DNA from: Synergistaceae bacterium
GTDB lineage: Bacteria; Synergistota; Synergistia; Synergistales; Aminobacteriaceae
Reading direction: 5' to 3'
DNA length: 43,038 bases
Assembly: GCA_017439345.1 (NCBI GenBank)
Contig: JAFSJJ010000028.1
Location: 1 to 43,038, forward strand
Shown here: positions 9,687-43,038 of the stretch, one piece after another
How positions within the stretch are numbered: position 1 is the stretch's first letter
How the letters are laid out: every line of letters starts with the position of its first letter
Notes under the pieces: model-generated
Told to the model about the DNA's origin: nothing
The model's input: only the letters and a program-made list of their open reading frames with translations
Database searches by the model: none
Program-made: the position numbers and the translations under genes

Positions 9687-9762
9687 GGGGCTGTAGCGCA
9701 GTTGGGAGCGCGCGACATTCGCATTGTCGAGGCCGGGAGTTCGACTCTCCTCAGCTCCACCA
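9687..9762 (+). tRNA. tRNA-Ala(CGC)
   Basis: A complete 76-base cloverleaf. Acceptor GGGGCTG pairs with CAGCTCC; the D-arm is GCGC/GCGC; anticodon stem CGACA/TGTCG encloses loop TTCGCAT with anticodon CGC (alanine, GCG codons). The T-arm is GGGAG/CTCCT with TTCGACT, and the gene encodes its own CCA end. The integrase gene starts 188 bases downstream and points away from it, the usual arrangement for a prophage that has integrated at the 3' end of a tRNA gene. Confidence 0.93.
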
Positions 9763-9924: not shown

Positions 9925-9950
9925 CAATATAAAGAAAATAGGTGAACACT

Positions 9951-11090
9951 ATGATAACAGAAATTCAAGCAAGAAAAGCACTCCCCAAAGAGAAGCCTTA
10001 CATGCTCCGCGATGATCGGGGGCTGTATTTACGCGTTGACCCTGCCGGTAGAAAATATTGGATATTACGCTACTGGGAAAATAAAAAGGAACATCAGCTA
10101 TCACTGGGGGCATACCCTGAAATTTCCCTGAAAGACGCAAGAATAAAGCGCGATGAGATTCAGACTGCCAGAGCAAAAGGCGAAAACCCCACACTGAAAT
10201 CTGTACGTAAACTGCAAATTTTCTCGGAGGTCGCTAACGAATGGCTTAATGTCCGAATGAAAGATAAATCACAAGGCTATATTAAGACCGTAATTTACAG
10301 GCTCAATAAATACATACTCCCTGCAATCGGTAATCTTGCCTTAAAAGATATTACTTCAGGGCATATTCTGTATATATGCAGGAATATTGAAGATTTAGGG
10401 CATGACGAAACAGCTAGACGGGTAAAAGTCATAATCGGTCAGGTATTCAGATTTTCAATCGCAGCAGGTTATACTGACTCAGACCCTACAGGCGCGCTGC
10501 TCGGAGCATTAAAGCCTCGTCAAAATATTCACTTCCCGACTTTCACGAATCCTTCAGAAATTGCCTTCCTGATGAAAGCCGTCAAAGCATACCCATATAC
10601 GATTTTACGGTCTGCAATGTTATTCTCGATTTATACAGCCGCGAGACCCGGCGAAATACGCAAAGCTGAATGGTCGGAAATTAAGGGCGATACTTGGGAA
10701 ATCCCCCCGGAAAAAATGAAAATGAGGCGCAAGCACGTTATACCCCTATCTTCTCAGGTAAAAGCAATTCTCGCAGAATTAAGGCCATTAACAGGCAAAA
10801 GCAAATGGATATTCCCCTCGCCTAGAGATAATACTCATTGTCTATCAGATAACGGGGTCAGAATAGCACTCCGATCAATCGGCTTTACAAAGGAGCAAAT
10901 AGTGCCTCATGGATTCAGAGCAATGTTCTCGACTATAGCCAACGAACACGGATTTAACAGAGACGTAATCGAGCGGCAATTATCACACGTAGAAATTAAC
11001 TCAGTCAGGGGAGCATACAATCACGCGGAATATATGCCCGAAAGAATTAAATTAATGCAATGGTGGGCAGATTATCTTGACAATCTTTAA
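9951..11090 (+). CDS. Prophage tyrosine integrase (P4/DUF4102 type)
   Basis: 379-residue site-specific recombinase. It has an N-terminal DUF4102-like domain (LRDDRGLYLRVDP, GAYPEISLKDAR), a SAM-like core-binding domain and a C-terminal catalytic domain. Catalytic residues are visible as the first Arg in AARPGEIR, His/Arg in HGFRAMFST, His in RQLSHVE and the nucleophilic Tyr in YNHAEY. ATG at 9951 is chosen because AGGTG lies just upstream; a GTG nine bases earlier is less likely. It is adjacent to tRNA-Ala, which is the expected target of this integrase type. It probably drives integration and, with the HTH gene at 14552, excision. Confidence 0.93.
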   Translation: MITEIQARKALPKEKPYMLRDDRGLYLRVDPAGRKYWILRYWENKKEHQLSLGAYPEISLKDARIKRDEIQTARAKGENPTLKSVRKLQIFSEVANEWLNVRMKDKSQGYIKTVIYRLNKYILPAIGNLALKDITSGHILYICRNIEDLGHDETARRVKVIIGQVFRFSIAAGYTDSDPTGALLGALKPRQNIHFPTFTNPSEIAFLMKAVKAYPYTILRSAMLFSIYTAARPGEIRKAEWSEIKGDTWEIPPEKMKMRRKHVIPLSSQVKAILAELRPLTGKSKWIFPSPRDNTHCLSDNGVRIALRSIGFTKEQIVPHGFRAMFSTIANEHGFNRDVIERQLSHVEINSVRGAYNHAEYMPERIKLMQWWADYLDNL

Positions 11091-11164: not shown

Positions 11165-11665
11165 TTAATTATACCTCAATTTTTTATCTAATTGATTCAG
11201 AATTTCGCACCATCTTGTTGAAGCCTCTTTTCTGGCAATCTTAAGAATGCTTCTGTCAAATTCGAATGCCTGATAGCCCATATCAATTATGGAATAATAC
11301 AAGTCAGAAGGTATAGGAATTTTGCTATGTTCACATTCAGCTTCAGAAGTCATGATATACGCCATAGCTGTTAAGTTGCCTAAATCTTGACCGTATAAAT
11401 CTTTTACAGGCAGGTTAAAATCTCTCTTATAATAAACAGTCGGGAAGCCCTCATAAATATCTAAACTTTTCTCGTCCTGTTCAGAGATCTCCCAGATAAC
11501 AACCGGAGTATTAAATTCTTTATTCTCATGGATCGTAGCATAAGAATTAAATACTAACTGCCAGCCTTCAAGCATTCCAGTTCCTACCATTTCAGCATTA
11601 GGACACCTGAAACCCATATTAGAGATTGATAAATTACTTCCGTAGGCAAGATAATATTTGCTCAC
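11165..11665 (-). CDS. Gamma-glutamylcyclotransferase-like protein
   Basis: 166-residue GGCT/AIG2-fold enzyme. It carries the N-terminal substrate loop YLAYGSNL and the characteristic DIYEGFPTVYY segment (about residues 75-86) whose glutamate is the general acid/base in the family. Members release 5-oxoproline from gamma-glutamyl amines or peptides. Start is GTG 11665, overlapping the previous stop by one base (TAGTG), with AGGAGG nine bases upstream. It is the last gene of a three-gene operon with a DpnD/PcfM-like protein and an amidoligase. Amidoligase plus cyclotransferase pairs are predicted to make and unmake gamma-glutamyl amide links, so a linked role is likely. The true substrate is unknown. 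Confidence 0.82.
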   Translation of the reverse strand: MSKYYLAYGSNLSISNMGFRCPNAEMVGTGMLEGWQLVFNSYATIHENKEFNTPVVIWEISEQDEKSLDIYEGFPTVYYKRDFNLPVKDLYGQDLGNLTAMAYIMTSEAECEHSKIPIPSDLYYSIIDMGYQAFEFDRSILKIARKEASTRWCEILNQLDKKLRYN

Positions 11666-11904
11666 TATTTATAGCCTCCTGCCACTGTGTCAGCCTCAAA
11701 CTCGCAAGTAATTGAGCCGTCATCATCAATGCCTTCATTCAGAGCTTCAGTTTCGACACCATAAAAATCATTGGAATCATCAAGAGTAATCTCGCCGTTT
11801 TTCCATGCGTCCATTGCTCTCTGCTCGGCATCTTCTTTATTATCTGCTTTGATGGAGACCGCCCGAAGGCGAATCTCCTTTATTTCTACTTTGAATATTT
11901 TCAT
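11665..11904 (-). CDS. DpnD/PcfM-like small protein
   Basis: 79-residue acidic protein that starts MKIFKVEIKE and carries a segment SIKADNKEDAEQRAMDAWKNG, typical of the DpnD/PcfM C-terminal family found in plasmids, conjugative elements and phages. Function is not known. It begins one base after the amidoligase stop and overlaps the cyclotransferase start by one base, so the three are co-translated from one messenger. The alternation of beta-strand and helix suggests a small compact domain that could bind the amidoligase, but this is inference only. Confidence 0.65.
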   Translation of the reverse strand: MKIFKVEIKEIRLRAVSIKADNKEDAEQRAMDAWKNGEITLDDSNDFYGVETEALNEGIDDDGSITCEFEADTVAGGYK

Positions 11905-11905
11905 T

Positions 11906-12853
11906 TTATCTCCTCCATGCTCCGTCTCCGTCCATATTCTTTAATAGAACTTCACGGGCTGTTTTGAACTCTTCACCGATAAATCCTAATCTTAACATCC
12001 AGCACCTGAAAGCGTATTTCTCGTTCTCTGTCTGCTGAGGCTTAGGACTGGCATATTTTAATTCTTTTGCTAACTCGCTCATTGCAAGGCATAACTGAAT
12101 GTAGCTCTTTAACTGATCGCAGTTGATTCCGCCTTCATGATTAATGCTCTCCTCGTCAAACTGAAAAAGTCTGAATTCTACTGTGCCCTTCGTAAAGCTG
12201 GCGTGGAGGTTGAGCATGTGATAACGGCTGTCATTATAATGGGTGTTCCTGGCGTAATTAGCATCGTTGCCTTTATACCAAATATCCGCAAGTTCTTTCA
12301 TTGTCTGAGGCTTTGACTTATTCAGGGCTTCAAGGAACTTGGGATTAACTATCTTGCAGTAACTCTCCGTTCTTGATGCTGCAATTTTTATTGCCCGCCC
12401 GATCTGCTGTTCATGAGCTGCCATGATATTCGCTAAATTCGTGAGGCTCTGCGCTGTGTGATCTCCGGCTTCGCTCTTAAGTCCTACGTGAATATGGACT
12501 CCGCATCCTCTTGAAGCACTGCTCTTAGCTCCGGCATGGCGTAACACTCTTAATAATCCCAAGAGAGTTTCTATATCTTCATAGTGAAGGATCGGAGTAA
12601 CAAGCTCGCACCTTTCGATATATTCGCCTCTGATACTTGGGTCATATGAGAATTTCCACTCTCTGCCCTGCCTGTCCCATGCGCTCCAAGTCTCGTAGTC
12701 GTTTTCTACTGCGGTATATGCATAGCGTCCTGTTCCGAAAAACTTACCTGCTAACTTTGAGGCTTTTTCTCTGCTGATTTTGTTCATTTCGACTTCAACG
12801 CCGAATGTCTGTTTTTTCATGTTTGCGATTTGATTCGCTGTTATTGCTTTCAT
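11906..12853 (-). CDS. Phage-borne amidoligase (COOH-NH2 ligase, glutamine-synthetase fold)
   Basis: 315 residues with the family's conserved pieces: FGVEVEMNKI near residue 17, CELVTPIL near residue 86, CGVHIHVG near residue 117 and GTVEFRLFQFD near residue 225. These provide the Glu, His and Arg residues that bind Mg-ATP and substrate in the glutamine-synthetase-like fold. Such enzymes join a carboxylate to an amine and are predicted to modify peptides, proteins or the cell surface. ATG at 12853 has AAAGGAG eleven bases upstream. The gene heads an operon with the DpnD/PcfM-like and cyclotransferase genes and is preceded by the 43-bp element shared with three other prophage genes. Confidence 0.85.
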   Translation of the reverse strand: MKAITANQIANMKKQTFGVEVEMNKISREKASKLAGKFFGTGRYAYTAVENDYETWSAWDRQGREWKFSYDPSIRGEYIERCELVTPILHYEDIETLLGLLRVLRHAGAKSSASRGCGVHIHVGLKSEAGDHTAQSLTNLANIMAAHEQQIGRAIKIAASRTESYCKIVNPKFLEALNKSKPQTMKELADIWYKGNDANYARNTHYNDSRYHMLNLHASFTKGTVEFRLFQFDEESINHEGGINCDQLKSYIQLCLAMSELAKELKYASPKPQQTENEKYAFRCWMLRLGFIGEEFKTAREVLLKNMDGDGAWRR

Positions 12854-12895
12854 AATTTTTTAGCTCCTTTGTGTTGTTTACTGGGTTTATTTCCC

Positions 12896-12938
12896 CTTGA
12901 CACTATATATTTTCACTCTGATTTAATTTAATGTCAAG
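12896..12938 (-). promoter_or_regulatory. 43-bp shared promoter/operator element, copy 1
   Basis: Read on the minus strand it begins with CTTGACA and ends TGTCAAG, a perfect seven-base dyad at both ends of a 43-base block. The centre contains CAGAGTGAAAATATA. TTGACA is a consensus -35; the -10 is not obvious (GAAAAT or AAAATA at 17-18 bases). The element precedes the amidoligase operon. Copies 2-4 are also exactly 43 bases long and almost identical. Confidence 0.75.
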
Positions 12939-12961
12939 TATTATTTTATAATTTTCGCGAT

Positions 12962-12998
12962 AAAATAAATAAAATAAAATTCAGGGGATCAGCTCCCC
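12962..12998 (-). terminator. Terminator of the 112-residue paralog gene
   Basis: GGGGA (12984-12988) pairs with TCCCC (12994-12998), and the minus strand continues through AATTTTATTTTATTTATTTTA. It ends the 13034-13372 transcript just before the amidoligase promoter. Confidence 0.6.
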
Positions 12999-13033
12999 CG
13001 AATAATCGAATAGTAAACAACACGTTTTCAAAG

Positions 13034-13372
13034 CTAAATGATTTTCATTAAGAATGCAGGGGAATCCAAATGTCTATTGCCTGTCCTTGTTAAGCCTAAT
13101 AAAATTACTCCGTTACGTTCAAAACCTGCAAGAGTTTCAAGAATACCGCTGCTCTGATTTGAAATCGTGAATTCCAAAATCCCGAATTTCTTTAATGAGG
13201 CTACGACTTTGCTAATGTCCTTATCCCAGATAATGTCTCTGAAATTAAGCCTGTCAAGTCCTGCGTCCTTGCTGTCTTCATATGCGCTGAATGTCTGAAA
13301 GCTGAAATCTTCACCGCTGGGGTTCTTGCCTGCTGCAATAGCGTCTTCGTACTCTTCGATAAATAACTTCAT
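13034..13372 (-). CDS. Paralogous small phage accessory protein, copy 1
   Basis: 112 residues, starting MKLFIEEYEDAI and ending PAFLMKII. It shares with the two neighbours (13514 and 14035) an N-terminal FI.E(F/Y)E helix, a Y..SK...G segment, the core D...(I/V)..L...GI.EFT.S, LAGF and a C-terminal (F/I)LMKI strand. I recall similar proteins in gut Clostridia prophages listed as a domain of unknown function (possibly DUF7698) but cannot confirm this. AAAGGAG precedes the ATG. It is a single-gene unit with its own 43-bp element and terminator. No catalytic motif is visible. Confidence 0.8.
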   Translation of the reverse strand: MKLFIEEYEDAIAAGKNPSGEDFSFQTFSAYEDSKDAGLDRLNFRDIIWDKDISKVVASLKKFGILEFTISNQSSGILETLAGFERNGVILLGLTRTGNRHLDSPAFLMKII

Positions 13373-13414
13373 AAAAATTAGTCTCCTTTGTTGTTATTAG
13401 TAGGTTTATGTTCC

Positions 13415-13457
13415 CTTGATGTTTTATATTTTCACTCTGATTTAATTTAATGTCAAG
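13415..13457 (-). promoter_or_regulatory. 43-bp shared promoter/operator element, copy 2
   Basis: Minus strand begins CTTGACA and ends CATCAAG, with the invariant centre CAGAGTGAAAATATA. It lies 42 bases before the 112-residue gene start and is followed by a conserved leader containing AACAACAAAGGAG. Confidence 0.75.
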
Positions 13458-13489
13458 TCCTATTTTATAAATTTTTACAAGAAAATATA

Positions 13490-13513
13490 ATAAAAAAGGG
13501 GAGCGCGTCCCCC
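13490..13513 (-). terminator. Terminator of paralog copy 2
   Basis: GGGGA (13498-13502) pairs with TCCCC (13508-13512), and the minus strand continues TTTTTTATTAT. The hairpin overlaps the end of the 13514-13873 gene closely. Confidence 0.7.
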
Positions 13514-13873
13514 TTAATTAACTTTCATAATTAAAACTGTTATTTGAGACTTTTTATTATCTCCTTCGTAGAGCAAGGGGTTGTTATACTCAAAAACTGC
13601 TGTCCTGCTTGGGAAAATTCCGGCTTCTTGGAAAGCAGCAAGTGTCTTGAAAAAAGTTTCGCGGCAACATGAGATCGCAAATTCTTTGATTCCGTATGCT
13701 CTGCATGTCTCGGCTATACGGGTAGCTTCATCGGGACATACACTCCCAAAAGTGAGCATTTCAAATTCGTCCAGCTTCGACAATTCATAACAGCGAAGCG
13801 TACCGTAACTTACTTTTTCGAGGGGGCGGACTTTGTTGATCATGTCTTCAAATTCTTGGATAAATACCTTCAT
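13514..13873 (-). CDS. Paralogous small phage accessory protein, copy 2
   Basis: 119 residues beginning MKVFIQEFEDMI and ending VLIMKVN. It is the most diverged of the three paralogs: it keeps the N-terminal FI.EFE helix, the YE.SK segment, the GIKEFAIS core and the C-terminal LIMK strand, but has two adjacent cysteines (ISCCRE) and lacks the WD..D motif present in the other two. AAAGGAG lies ten bases before the ATG. The gene is monocistronic with its own shared element and terminator. Divergence of coding sequence alongside near-identical promoters suggests diversifying selection or recent promoter homogenisation. Function unknown. Confidence 0.78.
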   Translation of the reverse strand: MKVFIQEFEDMINKVRPLEKVSYGTLRCYELSKLDEFEMLTFGSVCPDEATRIAETCRAYGIKEFAISCCRETFFKTLAAFQEAGIFPSRTAVFEYNNPLLYEGDNKKSQITVLIMKVN

Positions 13874-13915
13874 AAAATCTCTTCTCCTTTGTTGTTATTA
13901 CTGGGTTTATGTTCC

Positions 13916-13958
13916 CTTGATGTTTTATATTTTCACTCTGATTTAATTTTATGTCAAG
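13916..13958 (-). promoter_or_regulatory. 43-bp shared promoter/operator element, copy 3
   Basis: Minus strand begins CTTGACA and ends CATCAAG. It differs from copy 2 at a single base and lies 42 bases before the 119-residue gene start. Confidence 0.75.
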
Positions 13959-13992
13959 TCTTATTTTATAAAATTTTGCAAGAATATATAAT

Positions 13993-14016
13993 AAAAAAAA
14001 GGGGATTTTACTCCCC
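13993..14016 (-). terminator. Terminator of paralog copy 3
   Basis: GGGGA (14001-14005) pairs with TCCCC (14012-14016); the minus strand then reads eight T residues. Confidence 0.75.
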
Positions 14017-14034
14017 CGCAAAAGAGATTTTCAG

Positions 14035-14397
14035 CTAATTAATTTTCATGAGAATCGCAGGTATCTTTTCTTTTTTGTAGTTATTAACGTAAACTACGTC
14101 CTGAATTACGGCATCAAGTTTTTTGAAGCCTGCAAGAATATCAATACCGCTGGCCATTGTACTTGAAAACGTGAACTCTTTAACACCCAGACTGCGCAAC
14201 GTTGACACAATAGGTTCTACGTCATAATCCCAGACAACCTCGTTGAAATCGATTAACTGATTCCCGCGTTCTTTGCTCTGGCCGTAAGCATAAATCAGCG
14301 TCCGGTTATATTCTTTCGGAATAACTGCCCAGTAGGGTTTATTTTGACTGGCTGCTTTTTCGAGTATTGCCTCAAACTCTTTGATAAATAGATTCAT
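14035..14397 (-). CDS. Paralogous small phage accessory protein, copy 3
   Basis: 120 residues starting MNLFIKEFEAIL and ending AILMKIN. It shares YGQSKERG, DFNEVVWDYD, LGVKEFTFS and ILAGF with copy 1 (YEDSKDAG, NFRDIIWDKD, FGILEFTIS, TLAGF), giving the clearest family signature. AAGGAG precedes the ATG. It is transcribed away from the HTH gene at 14552, and its promoter element (copy 4) lies in the 154-base gap between them. Function unknown. Possible roles include anti-defence or superinfection functions, judged only from location. Confidence 0.8.
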   Translation of the reverse strand: MNLFIKEFEAILEKAASQNKPYWAVIPKEYNRTLIYAYGQSKERGNQLIDFNEVVWDYDVEPIVSTLRSLGVKEFTFSSTMASGIDILAGFKKLDAVIQDVVYVNNYKKEKIPAILMKIN

Positions 14398-14439
14398 TAA
14401 AAATTCTCTCCTTAGTTGTAATTGCTGTGTTTATATTCC

Positions 14440-14482
14440 CTTGACGTTGTATATTTTCACTCTGATTAATTTTTATGTCAAG
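14440..14482 (-). promoter_or_regulatory. 43-bp shared promoter/operator element, copy 4
   Basis: Minus strand begins CTTGACA and ends CGTCAAG with the same CAGAGTGAAAATATA centre. It lies 42 bases before the 120-residue gene and 21 bases before the -10 box of the divergent HTH gene, so one bound regulator could affect both. Confidence 0.75.
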
Positions 14483-14502
14483 TATTATTATGCAAAGTTA
14501 TA

Positions 14503-14511
14503 TGATATAAT
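14503..14511 (+). promoter_or_regulatory. Extended -10 promoter for the HTH gene
   Basis: TGATATAAT at 14503-14511 is a perfect extended -10 (TGnTATAAT). No good -35 is seen, which extended -10 promoters tolerate. It lies 41 bases before the ATG at 14552. Confidence 0.6.
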
Positions 14512-14551
14512 GCACTCAAGCAAAAAAATACAAGGAGGCCAAGTCCTTAAA

Positions 14552-14965
14552 ATGGATATTAACGAATTCGTATCACTTGAAGAGGCCGCGAAAATTTCAG
14601 GCTATCAGAAATGGCATGTCGGCTATTTATGCCGAGAAGGAAAACTCGCAGGAGTTCTTAAGGTCGGAAACAGCTGGCTAATTCCCCGCGCATCAATCGA
14701 AAATTACAAGCCCGGACCTCAAGGCTTCGCAGCAATTTGGAAACGAAAACGCGAGGCTCAAGAACAGCAGGATTTACAGGAATTGCAGGAAGCTGAATCA
14801 GAAAATTTTGACGAGATTGACATGACCGACAAAAACGCTGTCGAGGCTGAAAAAGAGAGATTATGCAAAGAATTAATGCTCATGGAGGAGAAAAATTTAG
14901 AGATACTCCGAAAAATTGATTTAATACGCAAGAAATTATTACGTCTTCATAAAGCAAGTCACTAG
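14552..14965 (+). CDS. HTH (excisionase/MerR-like) DNA-binding protein with coiled-coil tail
   Basis: 137 residues. The N-terminal 55 residues match the HTH_17/excisionase fold: a helix-turn-helix in SLEEAAKISGYQKWHVGYLC and a wing reading GKLAGVLKVGNSWLIPRA. The rest is a highly charged helix, probably a coiled coil for oligomerisation. ATG 14552 is chosen because an AAGGAGG site is nearby (though 13 bases away) and an extended -10 promoter lies at 14503. It is the only plus-strand gene besides the integrase and is divergent from the paralog units, so it is a candidate excisionase or regulator of the 43-bp elements. Either role is inference. Confidence 0.75.
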   Translation: MDINEFVSLEEAAKISGYQKWHVGYLCREGKLAGVLKVGNSWLIPRASIENYKPGPQGFAAIWKRKREAQEQQDLQELQEAESENFDEIDMTDKNAVEAEKERLCKELMLMEEKNLEILRKIDLIRKKLLRLHKASH

Positions 14966-16431: not shown

Positions 16432-16758
16432 CTATTCTAAATCAATGCCCGTCATCATGGATAAATACGCGATGTCCGACTGAGTCTTTGCCTCTTTAAG
16501 CTCAGAGTCAGGAATATCACGCAAGACAAACCAGTACTCCGAACCTTCCCGCGTAATCTGCACAAGTTCCATGTGTTCGTGCCTGCCCGTTAATCCTGCA
16601 TCGTCCGCGCCTGTTCCTGTGATTGTTACTCCCGACAATTTACCTGCAAACATTTCAGGTCTTATCTCACTGCCCGAAATGAAATTATTTCCATTTAATC
16701 CGAGTCCGCTGATTTGTGTTCCATCAGCCAGCGTAATCGTGAATGTCCCTTTCGCCAT
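16432..16758 (-). CDS. Small beta-rich tail-associated protein
   Basis: 108 residues opening with TFTITLADGTQISGLGLNG, a beta-strand-rich stretch resembling small proteins that accompany phage tail fibres near XkdX. The C-terminal third is more charged. Its ATG lies inside the reverse transcriptase gene: the two frames overlap by 64 bases, unusually long for this compact genome. The XkdX start lies 13 bases past the stop. No catalytic residues are visible. It may be a fibre-associated protein placed at the end of the tail module, with the DGR inserted upstream. Confidence 0.7.
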   Translation of the reverse strand: MAKGTFTITLADGTQISGLGLNGNNFISGSEIRPEMFAGKLSGVTITGTGADDAGLTGRHEHMELVQITREGSEYWFVLRDIPDSELKEAKTQSDIAYLSMMTGIDLE

Positions 16759-18002
16759 TCAGGTATCCTCCCAAATAAATTTTTATATAATTCGGTCATG
16801 TTGTAAATCTGCTGTCTCGACATGCGCTTAAAATTTCCGCCGATCCAGCTCTTAAAAATATTCTCTATCTCGCCGTATGTTATTTTGCCTGCGTCAAGAA
16901 GCCGCTTGTATGCCTTCAATTTCCTGCGTTCACGGGTTACGCTCTTGGGATTTATTTTGCAAATTACACGCCCCGTTTCAGTCAAACTGTAACCGTTCTG
17001 CAAATGTCGATAGAAGCCCGAAAGTTTTACAATTCGTGTCTTGCGTTCGTTGATTATCAGCCCGAATTCTTTAGCTATGACTCTCAGACCGTCAAGCAGT
17101 TCCCGCAAAGTTTCTTTGTCTCCGGCTATGGCGTAAAAGTCGTCAGTGTATCTGCCGTAACCTTTTATGCTTTTTACGATTTTCGCAAAATTATCAAGCC
17201 TGTACGGATAAATTAACCCTATGCTCTGTGAGTTCTGGTTGCCGATGTCCACGCCCTTATCTAGGAATTTCTCCCCTGTCAGAGTCACGGGATCAGCATT
17301 CATGTTCAGCATTTGGTCAACTTTACCGGTTCGGAATGCCTGTATTTCTTCGTCACTGAATCTGCTCACATCGACTCTAAAAGTCTTGAACATTTCAGCA
17401 AGCAGCCAGAGTGTATATTTAAGTTCTTCGGGGTTATCAAGTGAACGAGTCAAGAATTGCTCCAAAACTCCGTAGCATTTATCGTGGGGGATATTCGCAT
17501 AATAACCTGAGAAATCACCTAGCAAAATATAACCTTCGTTGTTGCCGTGTTCCATGAAATATTTATGCAGGTGAGCTTCAAATCGTTTTCTGTGAAATGA
17601 TACGCCCTTCCCCTTCTGTGAGGCTCCGTTGTCGTAAATAAGATATTTGCTCAATGACGGAGTCAATATTTCATCGCTGATTATGTGATTTATAGTTTTG
17701 TCGGCCATTGTATTGCTCGTGATATATCGAGGCTTCCCGCGTTCACGAATAAGAAATTTACTTCCAGCTTCAGGCGTGTACGTGCCTTCCCGCAGGTTTT
17801 TCTGAATCATTGCCGTATAAAGCAGGTGATTCATCTCAAAAAGGTGTGTCGAATACTTGAACGAACTGCCCTTCATTGCTTTAGTTCCGGCATCATAAAT
17901 TACATTGGCATCAAGAAAAATATTATCTTCCATAGTGTTTAGTGCGTTAAAAAACCGCTCTGCAGGTGTAGCAGTCGTAACTGACACCGTAGCGGTTCGC
18001 AT
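16695..18002 (-). CDS. DGR-type reverse transcriptase
   Basis: 435 residues. It copies template-repeat RNA into adenine-mutated cDNA that replaces part of the target gene. RT motifs are visible: LLGDFSGYYANIPH with the first catalytic Asp (D163), the DGR hallmark GxxxSQ as GNQNSQ (254-259) where group II intron enzymes carry a different motif, and the YTDD box (285-288) with the paired aspartates. There is no maturase or endonuclease domain, as expected for a DGR enzyme. The first ATG is 18002 with a poor ribosome site; ATG 17933 is also possible. The template repeat ends 78 bases upstream, and the 3' end overlaps the next gene by 64 bases. Confidence 0.93.
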   Translation of the reverse strand: MRTATVSVTTATPAERFFNALNTMEDNIFLDANVIYDAGTKAMKGSSFKYSTHLFEMNHLLYTAMIQKNLREGTYTPEAGSKFLIRERGKPRYITSNTMADKTINHIISDEILTPSLSKYLIYDNGASQKGKGVSFHRKRFEAHLHKYFMEHGNNEGYILLGDFSGYYANIPHDKCYGVLEQFLTRSLDNPEELKYTLWLLAEMFKTFRVDVSRFSDEEIQAFRTGKVDQMLNMNADPVTLTGEKFLDKGVDIGNQNSQSIGLIYPYRLDNFAKIVKSIKGYGRYTDDFYAIAGDKETLRELLDGLRVIAKEFGLIINERKTRIVKLSGFYRHLQNGYSLTETGRVICKINPKSVTRERRKLKAYKRLLDAGKITYGEIENIFKSWIGGNFKRMSRQQIYNMTELYKNLFGRIPEWRKGHSRLRWLMEHKSADSD

Positions 18003-18079
18003 TTATCAGGTTTGACCCTGAAAGGACAGCCCTTCCTTTCCCATTTACACGCGCGGGAACTTGCCCAATTTTGCGTGTC

Positions 18080-18170
18080 TGTGAAATCGGGGCGAACGCC
18101 AATCGCAGAATTAGAAGCATTATTGTAGTTCGCATTACCATTATTGTTGACATTGGCGAAACACGCACCT
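18080..18170 (-). repeat. DGR template repeat (TR)
   Basis: A 91-base invariant donor copy between the Avd-like and reverse transcriptase genes. It is 784 bases from the variable repeat and aligns to it without gaps. By hand count only four of 91 positions differ, at 18087, 18123, 18141 and 18145, and all four are adenines on the minus strand of TR. Read in the frame of the target it contains nine AAT/AAC codons. These can mutate to many residues without making stop codons, as is typical for TRs. The 24 minus-strand adenines are the substrate positions. Confidence 0.95.
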
Positions 18171-18194
18171 CCAAGAACTGCCCTTAATTTTGCA

Positions 18195-18656
18195 TTACTT
18201 CTTTATGTTCTTAAGGAAACGGTTATCAGACTGTCTAAGAGATTTTATCATATCAAAGACTTCTTGTGCTTCAAGTACTATATTCATGAATTTATTCTTA
18301 TCAGCGGGCAATGTCTCGGCTATGTACTGCAATTCGTCCTGTAACTTATTGCAAGATACGAGGGCGCGATCCATTTCAAGCCTGCGTTCCTCAAATTCAT
18401 TCATGTATGTCGGCCAGATTGTATTTGCTGCTCTTAGATGTTCCGTTATCCCCTGACAAAAATCTGCTACTCTGTCCCGTTCACGCATAATAAACCATGA
18501 GGAAAAATTATCTTCCACCTCACGAATTATTTTGCCCCTCTCTTCGCTCTCGTCTGCATCCTTGATGTAAGCTGTCATTTTCTTAATGTGCGCATCAAGT
18601 TTTTTCTGACTGTAGCCAAATGTCGCCATAAGTTCAGCCATAATTTTTCTGCGCAA
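18195..18656 (-). CDS. Avd-like DGR accessory protein
   Basis: 153 residues, predicted almost fully helical, ending in a basic stretch SLRQSDNRFLKNIKK. It lies between the target gene and the template repeat, exactly where avd sits in BPP-1. Avd is a pentameric four-helix-bundle protein that binds the reverse transcriptase and TR RNA. It is longer than usual Avd proteins (about 125 residues), and I recognise it mainly by position, helical character and charge. The listed start is TTG 18656. The frame stays open upstream to a CTG at 18722-18720 nine bases after a strong GGGGAGG, which would give 175 residues, so the true start is uncertain. Confidence 0.65.
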   Translation of the reverse strand: MRRKIMAELMATFGYSQKKLDAHIKKMTAYIKDADESEERGKIIREVEDNFSSWFIMRERDRVADFCQGITEHLRAANTIWPTYMNEFEERRLEMDRALVSCNKLQDELQYIAETLPADKNKFMNIVLEAQEVFDMIKSLRQSDNRFLKNIKK

Positions 18657-18760
18657 GGCATAAGCACGATGCAGGGCTTCAAGTTTTGATTCAGAGCGTT
18701 TACTTTTCGGTATGTTCGACAGAGTAAATAACCTCCCCTAAATTTGCGATTCAAAATCGA

Positions 18761-18776
18761 CTGCCGCAAGCGGCAG
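18761..18776. other. Perfect short hairpin between target and Avd-like gene
   Basis: CTGCCGC (18761-18767) pairs with GCGGCAG (18770-18776). It lacks a T-run and lies 45 bases from the larger hairpin at 18821. It may shape the RNA upstream of the Avd-like ribosome site. Confidence 0.5.
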
Positions 18777-18820
18777 GTATGCGAAAAACATAAAACCCTT
18801 TTTCTTGCCTGTCAACCGTC

Positions 18821-18847
18821 ATCTAACAGGGACAAGCCCTGTTAGAT
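18821..18847 (-). promoter_or_regulatory. Hairpin downstream of VR, candidate DGR target-recognition element
   Basis: ATCTAACAGGG (18821-18831) and CCCTGTTAGAT (18837-18847) form a perfect 11-base-pair stem with a five-base loop. It starts seven bases after the stop of the target gene and 16 bases beyond the end of VR. In BPP-1, a hairpin just downstream of VR is required for efficient retrohoming. The minus strand has no T-run after the stem, so it is a poor terminator and a good candidate for that role. Confidence 0.7.
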
Positions 18848-18854
18848 TTACTGA

Positions 18855-19820
18855 TTAGTAGATTGTGAAAGCGGGGCGAACGCCAATCGCAGAATTAGAA
18901 GCATTACTGTAGTTCGCATTACCAATATAGTTGACATTGGCGAAACACGCACCTGATACTACGTCCCGCAGCCAATACGGTACTCGGCAGCAAATAATGT
19001 CCGGTCTCAATCTGAATAACGCAAGCTGACTCTTCGCTACCGTGTATAAATTCGGAATTGTGCTACCATTACATGCCGTTCCGAGCACTTTACCTCCATA
19101 GACCATTTGCTCCGTCATTAATTCTACTGTGCTGTCATACCACGCTCCTGCACTCGGATAGCCGCTTGTAACTGCATTCTGTAAATATTCCCTGTGCTTC
19201 AAGATATGATCTGAGCCGAAAGCATTATTGATTATTGTCTTCGCATTGTTCAAGCCCGATTTGTACATGACGCTTCCGACATAGCCGCCTGTCGTTATAT
19301 CTGTCGCATTCATAACCTGAAGATAGAACGTTGTATCAGGAACTACGACTACATGATGTGTTACGCACTCCGTATCACCGGAACGATAGAAATAATCAAA
19401 ATCTGCGATCCTGAAAATATACGTATTGCTGTTTATCGTTATCTCCCAGTAATCGCCAACCCATAAATCATCGAACGTACCGGCTCGAATTGCTGCACTC
19501 TGTTCGGCTGTAAGTGCTGTGCCTAACTTCTTGCCCCTGTACAGCGAATTATGAAGTCCTGCCCCGCTGGCCTCACGCAACGGCTTTGTGAAATCTAATA
19601 TTTCATTCAGAGCTGCAACGAGATTCGCTTTATTCGTTGTGTCAAGATTACCAAGCGTCCCGATATTGCCTGCAAGTTCGTTGATTGCCGAGACAAGATT
19701 TAATTTATTCGTTGTGTCAAGATTCGCAAGGCTGCCCTGTATGTTTTCTACGTTATTGTTGTGTCTGAGAAGTTCTGTTAATATCGACTGCCCTGTCGAA
19801 TCCATTAATAATTTACCCAT
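18855..19820 (-). CDS. DGR target: tail fibre/adhesin with C-terminal variable lectin-like domain
   Basis: 321 residues. The N-terminal part has two copies of a fibre repeat (NLDTTNK.NLV.A.NE) near residues 33 and 58, and the C-terminal 230 residues look like a C-type-lectin/formylglycine-enzyme-type domain ending GVRPAFTIY. The last 32 residues are encoded by the variable repeat. Compared with the template, residues 298 (N to Y), 299 (N to I), 305 (N to S) and 317 (D to A) are changed. It is presumably displayed at the tail tip for receptor binding. It starts with ATG 19820 after GGAGGAAG, overlapping the previous gene by eight bases. Confidence 0.9.
   Translation of the reverse strand: MGKLLMDSTGQSILTELLRHNNNVENIQGSLANLDTTNKLNLVSAINELAGNIGTLGNLDTTNKANLVAALNEILDFTKPLREASGAGLHNSLYRGKKLGTALTAEQSAAIRAGTFDDLWVGDYWEITINSNTYIFRIADFDYFYRSGDTECVTHHVVVVPDTTFYLQVMNATDITTGGYVGSVMYKSGLNNAKTIINNAFGSDHILKHREYLQNAVTSGYPSAGAWYDSTVELMTEQMVYGGKVLGTACNGSTIPNLYTVAKSQLALFRLRPDIICCRVPYWLRDVVSGACFANVNYIGNANYSNASNSAIGVRPAFTIY
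18864..18954 (-). repeat. DGR variable repeat (VR)
   Basis: The 3' end of the target coding sequence, 91 bases, matching the template repeat at 18080-18170 apart from four substitutions. Changes fall at codon positions 1 or 2 only: AAT to TAT, AAT to ATT, AAT to AGT and GAT to GCT. The 3' end of the pair contains the GC-rich GGCGTTCGCCCCG, which fits the position of the initiation of mutagenic homology. The 317 codon change could be mutational or could be the VR/TR polarity mismatch. Confidence 0.95.
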
Positions 19821-24696: not shown

Positions 24697-24987
24697 TTAG
24701 TCCCCGATAAAAACATTTGGACTTCCTGTCGCGTCAACTCCTCCGCAAGCTACAGGGTCGCCGATCCTGCCTGCCTGTCTGCCGTTCACATAGACCGTTG
24801 ACGATCCAGACGCAAGAACGCTCCCATGACATTCAGGGTCTTTGTTGCAGTGAACTGCCCAAGCGTCCCCCTGCCTGTGTAAAGGTCTTCCGTTGACAAA
24901 GACATTCGGACTTCCCTCAATATTCGGTCTGGGCGGCCAGTCTGCGTGGCCTGTGCAAATATCTCCTAATCTTGCTGCTTCGGGCAT
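24697..24987 (-). CDS. PAAR-domain spike-tip protein
   Basis: 96 residues almost entirely made of PAAR repeats: RLGDICTGH at the start, GSPNVFVNG, GSSTVYVNG, AGRIGDPVACGG and GSPNVFIGD at the end. His and Cys residues (H in CTGH, C in VACGG, two Cys flanked by ECHGS) can bind a metal at the tip. The protein caps the gpV spike for membrane piercing. ATG 24987 is chosen because AGGAGG lies seven bases before it; the longer frame extending to 25272 would run through the upstream membrane-protein gene and is not needed. Confidence 0.92.
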   Translation of the reverse strand: MPEAARLGDICTGHADWPPRPNIEGSPNVFVNGRPLHRQGDAWAVHCNKDPECHGSVLASGSSTVYVNGRQAGRIGDPVACGGVDATGSPNVFIGD

Positions 24988-25187
24988 GGTAAAACCTCCT
25001 CGATTTTGCTTACTATTGAATTTCCGGTCTCGAATATCATTTTGACTGTAGAAATTTTTGCTTCCGTGATCAGCTTTATATATTCCTTGCTGATTCTTAT
25101 AGTCTGATATAGGACGCATATATTTACGAGAGTCAGAAACAGTGATAGTCCAAGTGTTAAGCCGCCTAATATATTTATATATTCCAT
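24966..25187 (-). CDS. Small single-pass membrane protein overlapping PAAR
   Basis: 73 residues: a hydrophobic helix at about residues 7-28 (ILGGLTLGLSLFLTLVNI) followed by a charged amphipathic part ending in CPKQQD. AAGGAG lies ten bases before the ATG. Its stop overlaps the PAAR gene by 22 bases, and the PAAR ribosome site lies inside it. It lies downstream of a terminator-like hairpin, between gpV and PAAR. I know no family match; a membrane-associated late protein such as a spanin- or i-spanin-like protein is only speculation. Confidence 0.6.
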   Translation of the reverse strand: MEYINILGGLTLGLSLFLTLVNICVLYQTIRISKEYIKLITEAKISTVKMIFETGNSIVSKIEEVLPCPKQQD

Positions 25188-25213
25188 CGTGAAAAATTGC
25201 TCCTTGTCTGAAT

Positions 25214-25249
25214 AAAAAATTGCCCCCGATTCCTGAATAAACCGGGAGC
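25214..25249 (-). terminator. Attenuator-like hairpin after gpV
   Basis: GCCCCCG (25222-25228) pairs with CGGGAGC (25243-25249), with one G-U, and the minus strand continues AATTTTTTATT. It stands between gpV and the membrane protein/PAAR genes inside the late operon, so partial termination is likely. Confidence 0.55.
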
Positions 25250-25290
25250 TTGGGAGATACTCTATTTAACATGAAAAAATTTTGTAGCCG

Positions 25291-40159: not shown

Positions 40160-40567
40160 TTAATTATCTTGAAACATTGCCGCTATATTTAGCGGTGGCA
40201 ATACAATAGGAGACATACCTGGCTGAACTGTAATATTTGAAATGTAGCTCCTAACATAAGGGAACATAATAGCAAGCCCATTCTTTTGAATAAAAGAGTT
40301 ATCTTCATTCAACGTTTCAAAATATGCAACACATTTTACGCTAAGTTCTAGTTTTTTAGCTTTATCGCTCATCGAAACTTCTAAAGATACTTTGCGTTCA
40401 TTTGTTCCTGTATCATCGTTTTCAGGTAATATTTCTATTTCATGCTTAAAAAGTAATTTAACTTTTACATCTTTCAATGAGTCCTCAGAACGCCTAAAAC
40501 GACAATCGGAAATTAGTAATCTTTTTAAAATCAATGGACTTTTGTATTCTGTTTCAAATTCAATCAT
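40160..40567 (-). CDS. SecB-like chaperone of a TAC-type cassette
   Basis: 135 residues, near the usual SecB length. The C-terminal half shows the SecB signature: FPYVRSYISNIT (102-113) and PIVLPPLNIAAMF (120-132), equivalent to the FPYAR and LxPVNF motifs of SecB. SecB-like proteins in toxin-antitoxin-chaperone systems hold a labile antitoxin in a folded, active state. A role in general protein export is unlikely in a phage. It lies 13 bases after the 91-residue gene with AGAGGT upstream and is the last gene of the cassette. Confidence 0.85.
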   Translation of the reverse strand: MIEFETEYKSPLILKRLLISDCRFRRSEDSLKDVKVKLLFKHEIEILPENDDTGTNERKVSLEVSMSDKAKKLELSVKCVAYFETLNEDNSFIQKNGLAIMFPYVRSYISNITVQPGMSPIVLPPLNIAAMFQDN

Positions 40568-41543: not shown

Positions 41544-43038
41544 TTAAAATCTCAAACCCCGCCTGATTATCCCTGCCCCTGTAGTAGACACCCGCTTTTT
41601 CACAACAGGCTGCTTTATTTCCTGATTCTGTTCGGGAACTTCCGCTTTAACTTCAGGTTCTTTGAACTCAGGCTGCTTTAACTTCGGCATTGTGTTTTTA
41701 CCAGTCCTCTTAATTCTCCTGCGCTGATGCATTTCAAGATTAGGGTTAAACAGTTCCAACGCTCCTGTCGCATAGACTCTCGTATCTAAAGGCTCATTAC
41801 GCAACCCCGGACTGCGGGTCTCCCACGTGATTGTGTCTCTGCCTTTAACTCGTTTTACTACCATGCGTTCGGACAATAAGCCCTTGAAGTAAACAGCATC
41901 ATAGCCCCTGTGATTGTGCTTAGGGTCTAACGGAAAATGACAATAACCTGCTCCTCTGCGTTCGAGCTTCAATCTTGAGAATAACGTACCCTTGATAGTA
42001 TTTACTCCCAGAGTGAATAACGCTACATGTCTTCTATTACTCCTACTAGGCTTGCTTACGCTTGGCATTCCTTCTCGGCCTCGACCTACGATAGCGAAAA
42101 TATTGCGTCTGGCTCTGGGCTTGCAGAATTTATAAACTTCATCCGTGAAATGTCCTGCACTGTCTATACATGCGCAAGATATGCCGATTTTCTCTCCGTT
42201 CTGGTAGCTCCATAACTTTAACAGGAAATCATCGAGTGCCTGCCACACTTCATTTAATCCCGGATCGCCATAGAATACTCGATACTCAATGCCCCATGAT
42301 TCCTTGCCTACTCCCCAGCCGACAACCTCACATTCGAGTCTGTCATCCTGAGTGTCAACTCCGCAGGTTAGGACTAATACGCCGTCAGGAAGTTCCGCAT
42401 TATATTCTTCTCTGTGAGATTCTAGTGCCTCAACTTCAATAGTTCCGATAGCGTTTTCATATGGAAGTCCGAGAGCTGTATTCCACCAGCCTTTTAATGA
42501 CTCCTCGCCGTTGTGCAAGGCTTCTTCATAATCTTTGATTAATCCCGTCCATGATGCCCACGGCGATGCAAATGCGTTCATGTGAAAGCCCCGAATCTTC
42601 GTCTCAGCAGGATTCTTTGCTATCCATTTTCCGCGCTCCTGATTAGATTTCCATTCGACTTCGTTATGAACCGCCCCGCATTTAGCACACGTCATAACAG
42701 GTTCGGGCTTGTCTTTGTAAGATATTTGCTCCCATGTGAAAGCCTGATATTCCCCGCAGCTCGGACAAGGAACGCACCACTCTTCCTGACTGCTTAACTG
42801 AAAGCCGGGATAAATTCTCGAAGTCTCCAAAAGTCCCGGTGTCGATACCCAAACGATTCGCCTGTTCCAGAAATTTTGAGTTCTCTTCATAGCAAGCGTC
42901 AAAGGATCGCCCTCCTTGCCTGCCGATTCAGGGTAACGGTCAACCTCATCACAAAGCAAAACTCTAATAGGACGTGAAGCTAACGATACAGGGGAATTTG
43001 TCGCAGAAATTGTTATGTGGCCTCCGACAAATTTTTTA
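41544..43038 (-). CDS. Terminase large subunit (lambda gpA family), 5'-truncated
   Basis: The reading frame enters at the right edge with no start in the window, and 497 codons are present. The segment RVLLCDEVDRYP next to the edge is the Walker B end of the packaging ATPase; the Walker A is off-window. A zinc-finger-like CPSCGEYQAF...CAKCGAVH follows. The C-terminal nuclease half shows CGVDTQDDRLECEVVGWG, a metal-binding Asp region, and ACIDSAGH. It cuts and packages phage DNA. The last 60 residues are basic and Glu/Pro-rich. A TTG at 42959 is not a credible start. Confidence 0.93.
   Translation of the reverse strand, partial: KKFVGGHITISATNSPVSLASRPIRVLLCDEVDRYPESAGKEGDPLTLAMKRTQNFWNRRIVWVSTPGLLETSRIYPGFQLSSQEEWCVPCPSCGEYQAFTWEQISYKDKPEPVMTCAKCGAVHNEVEWKSNQERGKWIAKNPAETKIRGFHMNAFASPWASWTGLIKDYEEALHNGEESLKGWWNTALGLPYENAIGTIEVEALESHREEYNAELPDGVLVLTCGVDTQDDRLECEVVGWGVGKESWGIEYRVFYGDPGLNEVWQALDDFLLKLWSYQNGEKIGISCACIDSAGHFTDEVYKFCKPRARRNIFAIVGRGREGMPSVSKPSRSNRRHVALFTLGVNTIKGTLFSRLKLERRGAGYCHFPLDPKHNHRGYDAVYFKGLLSERMVVKRVKGRDTITWETRSPGLRNEPLDTRVYATGALELFNPNLEMHQRRRIKRTGKNTMPKLKQPEFKEPEVKAEVPEQNQEIKQPVVKKRVSTTGAGIIRRGLRF

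Follow-up and report, generated by a model that had tools for sequence, protein, structure and literature searches.

An amidoligase and gamma-glutamylcyclotransferase pair, with an optional DpnD/PcfM gene, in a promoter-array cargo unit of a rumen Synergistaceae prophage

The pairing of an Amidoligase_2 enzyme with a gamma-glutamylcyclotransferase (GGCT) in phages, and the idea that it acts against superinfection, are both published predictions (Iyer et al. 2009, as cited by others; PMC5498523). Joint action of amidoligases with AIG2/GGCT enzymes, which the initial annotation of the present locus cited as predicted, is a prediction already in print. The literature also treats a 'peptidoglycan modification cassette' of podoviruses, an idea of Iyer and Hardies in which a predicted change of the envelope excludes superinfecting phages. 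Amidoligase_2 and GGCT pairs also occur in Terrisporobacter TPDSL_ph1, the C. clostridioforme LM41 prophages, C. difficile Tn6164 and Arthrobacter cluster AL. The pair itself has already been predicted and is annotated widely; among open full texts we found no experimental function or target for any member of it. As far as the papers searched show (open full texts), a version that contains DpnD, lacks the pseudo-amidoligase partner discussed below and lies in a DUF7698 promoter array is undescribed.

The window analysed here is the whole 43,038-nt contig JAFSJJ010000028.1 (assembly GCA_017439345.1). Its element is a contractile-tailed prophage with tail sheath, tube, tape measure, portal and terminase genes; position 43038 is the contig end and still lies within the prophage, the early region of which is off the contig. 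The host is a rumen Synergistaceae bacterium, and the close relatives of the ligase with a named host come from goat and deer rumen Synergistaceae MAGs. The amidoligase operon is placed between the lysis genes and the attachment site, a usual place for cargo genes of prophages. The operon and its att-side neighbours are:

9687-9762, tRNA-Ala(CGC), adjoining the integrase gene
9942-11090, plus strand, tyrosine integrase, convergent with the amidoligase operon, att side at tRNA-Ala
11165-11665, minus strand, gamma-glutamylcyclotransferase (AIG2/GGCT), 166 aa, GTG start (PF06094, phrog_2520)
11665-11904, minus strand, DpnD/PcfM-family small protein, 79 aa, optional member (PF14207)
11906-12853, minus strand, predicted GS/GCL-fold amidoligase (type B, catalytic), 315 aa (PF12224, phrog_2443)

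Several other features of the prophage were recorded. A diversity-generating retroelement occupies 16695-18954 of the window, with a reverse transcriptase gene (16695-18002, minus strand), a template repeat (18080-18170) and a variable repeat (18864-18954) inside a tail-fibre gene (18855-19820); all four mismatches between the repeats (4/4) coincide with adenines of the template, read on the coding strand. In the head gene region, 40160-40567 encodes a SecB-like protein (PF02556, E=1e-6), and in the baseplate region 24697-25272 encodes a PAAR-motif protein. Two sister copies of the locus (L107 and L111) are decaying, their amidoligase genes truncated or broken and their integrase frames split.

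The operon spans 11165-12853 on the minus strand in the order amidoligase, DpnD/PcfM, GGCT. ORF coordinates and Pfam matches bear out the three closely packed genes of the initial annotation, with one-base spacing or overlap: 1 bp lies between the amidoligase stop and the DpnD start, and the stop codon of DpnD shares one base with the start codon of the GGCT (TAGTG). Codon-level estimates gave median dN/dS values of about 0.09 for the amidoligase, 0.15 for DpnD and 0.13 for the GGCT, rough figures in that dS was often saturated. With that caveat, purifying selection keeps all three genes. Neither a signal peptide nor a membrane segment was apparent when the three protein sequences were read by eye, which would place the target in the cytoplasm. 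PADLOC (2023 library) returned no matches for the operon proteins, nor for the DUF7698 and HTH proteins described below.

The amidoligase matches PF12224 (E=1.1e-47, 163 bits against a cut-off of 22) and phrog_2443 (E=1e-97). Catalytic motifs had been claimed for both enzymes, and both carry them. In the amidoligase these are E20-x-E22, H120-x-H122 and E226-F-R228 (ExE/HxH/ExR), each with at least 98% conservation across 47 non-redundant homologues. The protein models (AF2, pLDDT 92) with a glutamate-cysteine-ligase/glutamine-synthetase fold. By structure it lies closest to YbdK and to glutamate-cysteine ligases from plants and E. coli, with Z 13-14 across 237-255 residues (VIA Z of 14.2 to 1tt4, 13.8 to YbdK 1r8g and 13.0 to E. 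coli GshA 1v4g), while glutamine synthetases rank lower at Z 11-12 and Dop and PafA reach about Z 11, the whole range being Z 14.2-10.8. The GGCT matches PF06094 (E=3e-8, 34.9 bits against a cut-off of 22.8) and phrog_2520 (E=6e-32), and its YGSNL and LD-x-YEG motifs are conserved among full-length homologues. The Glu of LD-x-YEG aligns with the QEG Glu of human GGCT (2pn7) in a weak sequence match (E=0.016); the latter residue we take to be the catalytic Glu of the family. Two different tandem GGCT genes follow DpnD in five cassettes (L008, L009, L019, L022 and L075).

Linkage was examined in a neighbourhood survey of 335 loci (2.6 Mb), in which ligases were made non-redundant at 90% identity and had enough downstream sequence. 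A GGCT lies directly downstream of the ligase in 95 of 102 cassettes (42/44 in an earlier set), with a median gap of 89 bp. Conversely, 250 of the 252 GGCTs found stand downstream of a ligase, a figure biased by the loci having mostly been gathered via the ligase family; a less biased reverse search that started from the GGCT in phage records found a ligase as well in 41 of 44. Seven of the 102 cassettes are without a GGCT, four of them with DUF7698 nearby. In eight Acidaminococcus-type cassettes (L031, L035, L043, L046, L055, L064, L083 and L137) a pseudo-amidoligase, a ligase and DUF7698 were found and no GGCT was detected; here DUF7698 is in or near the GGCT position. That cargo slots gather genes with no relation to one another, and that DpnD and DUF7698 are variably present, would suit three genes brought together by chance in a cargo hotspot without working jointly. 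However, ligase and GGCT are linked far more often than chance would allow, across different phage backbones and two bacterial phyla. Chance is thus refuted for the enzyme pair and could still account for DpnD; as an explanation of the locus we hold it to be very improbable. The two enzymes are supported as a real functional pair.

The position of DpnD differs. The protein matches its family profile (PF14207, E=7e-11, 42.3 bits against a cut-off of 25), yet it is present in only 18 of the 102 non-redundant ligase cassettes, and some Synergistaceae genomes encode it where neither an amidoligase nor a GGCT or DUF7698 gene is nearby. A tblastn search with DpnD against 50,697 phage records gave no matches. 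In the ligase tree a single clade, which holds Synergistaceae copies and rumen Firmicutes phages, takes in most of the cassettes with DpnD, and one such cassette falls outside; the support for this clade is 87/96 and its fork is drawn open. The C-termini of DpnD proteins vary (AGGYK, GKGTAKNGR and GGDGVE among them). A Pup-like tag, after PafA/Pup, was considered for DpnD and rejected, as a C-terminal Gly-Gly-Glu/Gln is not conserved. Given its frequency, its solitary occurrences and its variable C-terminus, the proposal that DpnD is a substrate or an obligatory adaptor is unsupported. The association drawn by the initial annotation among three genes thus holds for the two enzymes and does not extend to the middle gene. 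Ligase and GGCT are the system, and DpnD is an optional member.

Among 96 loci whose upstream sequence was long enough, 76 have a second, usually shorter ligase homologue before the ligase, and most Firmicutes ligase-GGCT copies come after such a protein. This pseudo-amidoligase aligns full-length with the ligase (hhalign profile comparison, probability 100) and has in common with it a C-terminal NEKYAFR-x-W-LLRLG...AFR module, while most of 45 non-redundant pseudo-amidoligases have other residues at the catalytic positions. Since these proteins are annotated only as 'amidoligase' or 'hypothetical' although they are without catalytic residues, current annotation misleads. Among 66 scorable phage occurrences the pseudo-amidoligase stands alone in 33, with DUF7698 in 17 and with the ligase-GGCT pair in 16. 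It is found in several Synergistaceae genomes too, and one of these, without an Amidoligase_2 match, encodes two tandem proteins of this type (L246, 5014-8205; 376 and 676 aa), of which the 676-aa protein carries a long acidic insert. In the genome of the window no pseudo-amidoligase was found, the sole match being the amidoligase itself. Because the Synergistaceae ligases are nested among ligases that have the partner, its loss in this lineage would be the simpler reading.

Upstream of the operon lies an array of DUF7698 genes with the following features:

12855-12952, minus strand, promoter/leader module of the amidoligase operon (TTGACA-17-GAAAAT, AGAGT, AAGGAG)
12979-13003, minus strand, terminator-like hairpin between DUF7698 copy 1 and the amidoligase operon
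13034-13372, minus strand, DUF7698 copy 1 (PF24753, 3.5e-25)
13371-13473, minus strand, promoter/leader module of DUF7698 copy 1
13495-13515, minus strand, terminator-like hairpin between DUF7698 copies 2 and 1
13514-13873, minus strand, DUF7698 copy 2 (PF24753, 3.6e-8)
13872-13974, minus strand, promoter/leader module of DUF7698 copy 2
14000-14017, minus strand, terminator-like hairpin between DUF7698 copies 3 and 2
14035-14397, minus strand, DUF7698 copy 3 (PF24753, 3.4e-25; small alpha/beta AF2 model, pLDDT 95)
14397-14498, minus strand, promoter/leader module of DUF7698 copy 3
14381-14965, plus strand, divergent HTH_17/excisionase-type protein (PF12728, 9.5e-6, just below the cut-off; a sister copy is above it)

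A promoter scan placed a TTGACA-17-GAAAAT site ahead of the amidoligase operon and of each of the three DUF7698 genes, and the alignment of the four upstream regions extends for about 100 bp. The 32-bp core of this module matches four times in the window, nowhere else in the genome and not at all in shuffled sequences. In sister prophages, amidoligase and DUF7698 genes are preceded by a diverged module (ACTTGca-...-AGAGTtA-...-AAAcgcAGTAA-...-AAgGAG). Across 43 genomes a strict leader pattern gave 10 sites, all at amidoligase or DUF7698 genes, and 0 control sites. A profile found 30 strong copies in the window and its sister prophages, 10 before amidoligase genes, 16 before DUF7698 genes and 4 before other small genes; these last include Nmad4 (L112) and DUF5049 (L101), single cases each. 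Neither Nmad4 nor DUF5049 has a match in the genome of the window. A conserved hairpin in the 5' leader RNA (GCG-GAAA-CGC) was also considered and was dropped, without a formal test, as several leaders cannot pair. Translation of the HTH_17 protein probably begins at the ATG near 14552. Of the sister loci long enough to include this edge of the array, nearly all have the HTH_17 gene there, and by its position the protein is a candidate regulator of the array.

DUF7698 recurs with the pair outside this lineage. A DUF7698 query run independently led to three viral contigs, all with ligase and GGCT, and in Firmicutes phages DUF7698, DUF5049 and Nmad4 flank the ligase-GGCT pair as well, in a different gene order and backbone. 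The Firmicutes slot before the terminase genes also holds these three families without the pair. The same families share one promoter in a second phylum, which suggests that they and the pair have moved or been kept as a set. The DUF7698 fold gave no PDB match below E 0.05 and, in a viral library, nothing below E 0.001 other than DUF7698 itself; its derivation as a remnant of the pseudo-amidoligase was rejected for want of profile similarity (hhalign probability <1%). The promoter array offers an independent, regulation-based list of partner genes, DUF7698 above all. The initial annotation had included neither the three DUF7698 genes and their common promoter nor the pseudo-amidoligase of related loci.

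How might the operon work? We favour, with about equal parts of belief and doubt, a unit of phage cargo that forms a glutamyl-type amide on an intracellular amine and also undoes it. The amidoligase, being glutamate-cysteine-ligase-like, would spend ATP to join a carboxylate to an amine; the donor would most likely be the gamma-carboxylate of glutamate, and another carboxylate could serve. The GGCT, to judge from its motifs, would cyclise the gamma-glutamyl group off as 5-oxoproline and free the amine, and the tag would then be reversible or a protecting group. In butirosin biosynthesis gamma-glutamyl acts as such a protecting group. DpnD/PcfM, translated between ligase and GGCT, would be an optional accessory, and the co-regulated DUF7698 genes would form part of the same cargo set. 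Transcription would start from the operon's own sigma-70-like promoter, a copy of the one before each DUF7698 gene. This promoter and the cargo position suggest that expression is probably separate from that of the late genes; the consensus promoters would allow it perhaps in the lysogen, under the HTH protein. Fold and motifs fit the predicted make-and-remove chemistry on a glutamyl amide that the initial annotation had put forward.

Three other targets or roles have to be weighed against this cargo unit acting on an intracellular amine. For podoviruses with related enzymes, the ligase is predicted to add unusual amide-linked residues to peptidoglycan peptide precursors, which the GGCT trims, so that receptors are altered and superinfecting phages excluded; the prediction has been repeated for Firmicutes prophages, and the cargo position by the attachment site and the separate promoter suit expression in the lysogen. 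However, the ATP-grasp, glutamine amidotransferase and second amidoligase of the podovirus cassette were not found among the neighbouring and most other prophage proteins on the contig, the ligase-GGCT cassette spans monoderm and diderm hosts, and Firmicutes phages have it with DNA methylases upstream of the terminase, which is not a conversion position. No supporting experiment was found in the literature, and we regard an envelope target as possible but rather doubtful.

The Firmicutes neighbourhood bears in turn on a role in nucleotide or DNA modification, in which a modified base or nucleotide would be the substrate of the pair, methylases and Nmad4 would be its partners, and phage DNA would be protected. 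In those phages the pair follows DNA methylases in 53 of 59 cases and C5 methylases in 38 of 59, Nmad4 (nucleotide-modification-associated domain 4) and DUF5049 are often near it, and the Synergistaceae Nmad4 and DUF5049 units share the promoter module of the amidoligase operon. Methylases are, however, similarly common beside the pseudo-amidoligase without the pair (20/26 for DNA methylases, 11/26 for C5), so that they mark the slot and were rejected as specific partners of the pair. The genome of the window also lacks Nmad4 and DUF5049 matches, with the prophage early region lying off the contig, and on this evidence DNA modification seems unlikely. A gamma-glutamyl-ligase-like fold next to a GGCT would equally fit gamma-glutamylamine chemistry, the pair buffering polyamines or gamma-glutamyl amines, or recycling glutamate, as auxiliary metabolic genes. 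For genes of this kind, a study of a Planctomycetes phage puts forward a part in nitrogen metabolism, but the growth effects it describes belong to the whole phage, and the linkage to DUF7698, DpnD and the pseudo-amidoligase is left unexplained. This role, too, we think improbable.

Family-pattern scans returned hundreds of relatives of the ligase-GGCT pair on viral contigs, and the pair is common in gut phages. A wider proposal, which we offer tentatively and with more doubt than confidence, is that gut phages share an undescribed modification system of ligase and GGCT, often behind a dead paralogue and with optional DUF7698, Nmad4, DUF5049 and DpnD. The Synergistaceae lineage would have received this set and put each gene under copies of one promoter, so that the genes pass on and are controlled together as a single function, in which nucleotides, a defence target or an envelope target might be tagged. 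By separating the obligatory pair from the optional DpnD, the survey defines gene sets with which the old prediction can be tested.

Compared with the pairs of TPDSL_ph1, LM41, Tn6164 and cluster AL, the present locus has the same two enzyme families in the same neighbourhood, and with the LM41 prophages it shares phrog_2443 and phrog_2520. Unlike those pairs, it has DpnD between the enzymes, no pseudo-amidoligase, and a promoter-array unit with DUF7698 by the attachment site. The podovirus cassette (phiEco32, LUZ24, PSA-HP1) likewise joins an amidoligase to a gamma-glutamylcyclotransferase, and differs in its ATP-grasp, glutamine amidotransferase and second amidoligase, none of which appeared among the proteins scanned here. 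With the glutamate-cysteine ligase/YbdK family the amidoligase shares the modelled fold (Z 13-14) and the ExE...HxH...ExR pattern, but it is only 10-14% identical, phage-borne and coupled to a GGCT.

In butirosin biosynthesis the ligase BtrJ adds a gamma-glutamyl group and the GGCT-fold enzyme BtrG removes it. The proposed pair would follow the same add-then-remove logic, although BtrJ is an ATP-grasp enzyme, not GS-fold, and belongs to another pathway. In the SAS of cluster K mycobacteriophages and the PeSL of T4-type phages, short repeats precede separately transcribed cargo genes. The module described here resembles them in placing repeats before cargo genes; unlike them, it includes a full sigma-70-like promoter with a near-invariant AGAGT ahead of the -10.
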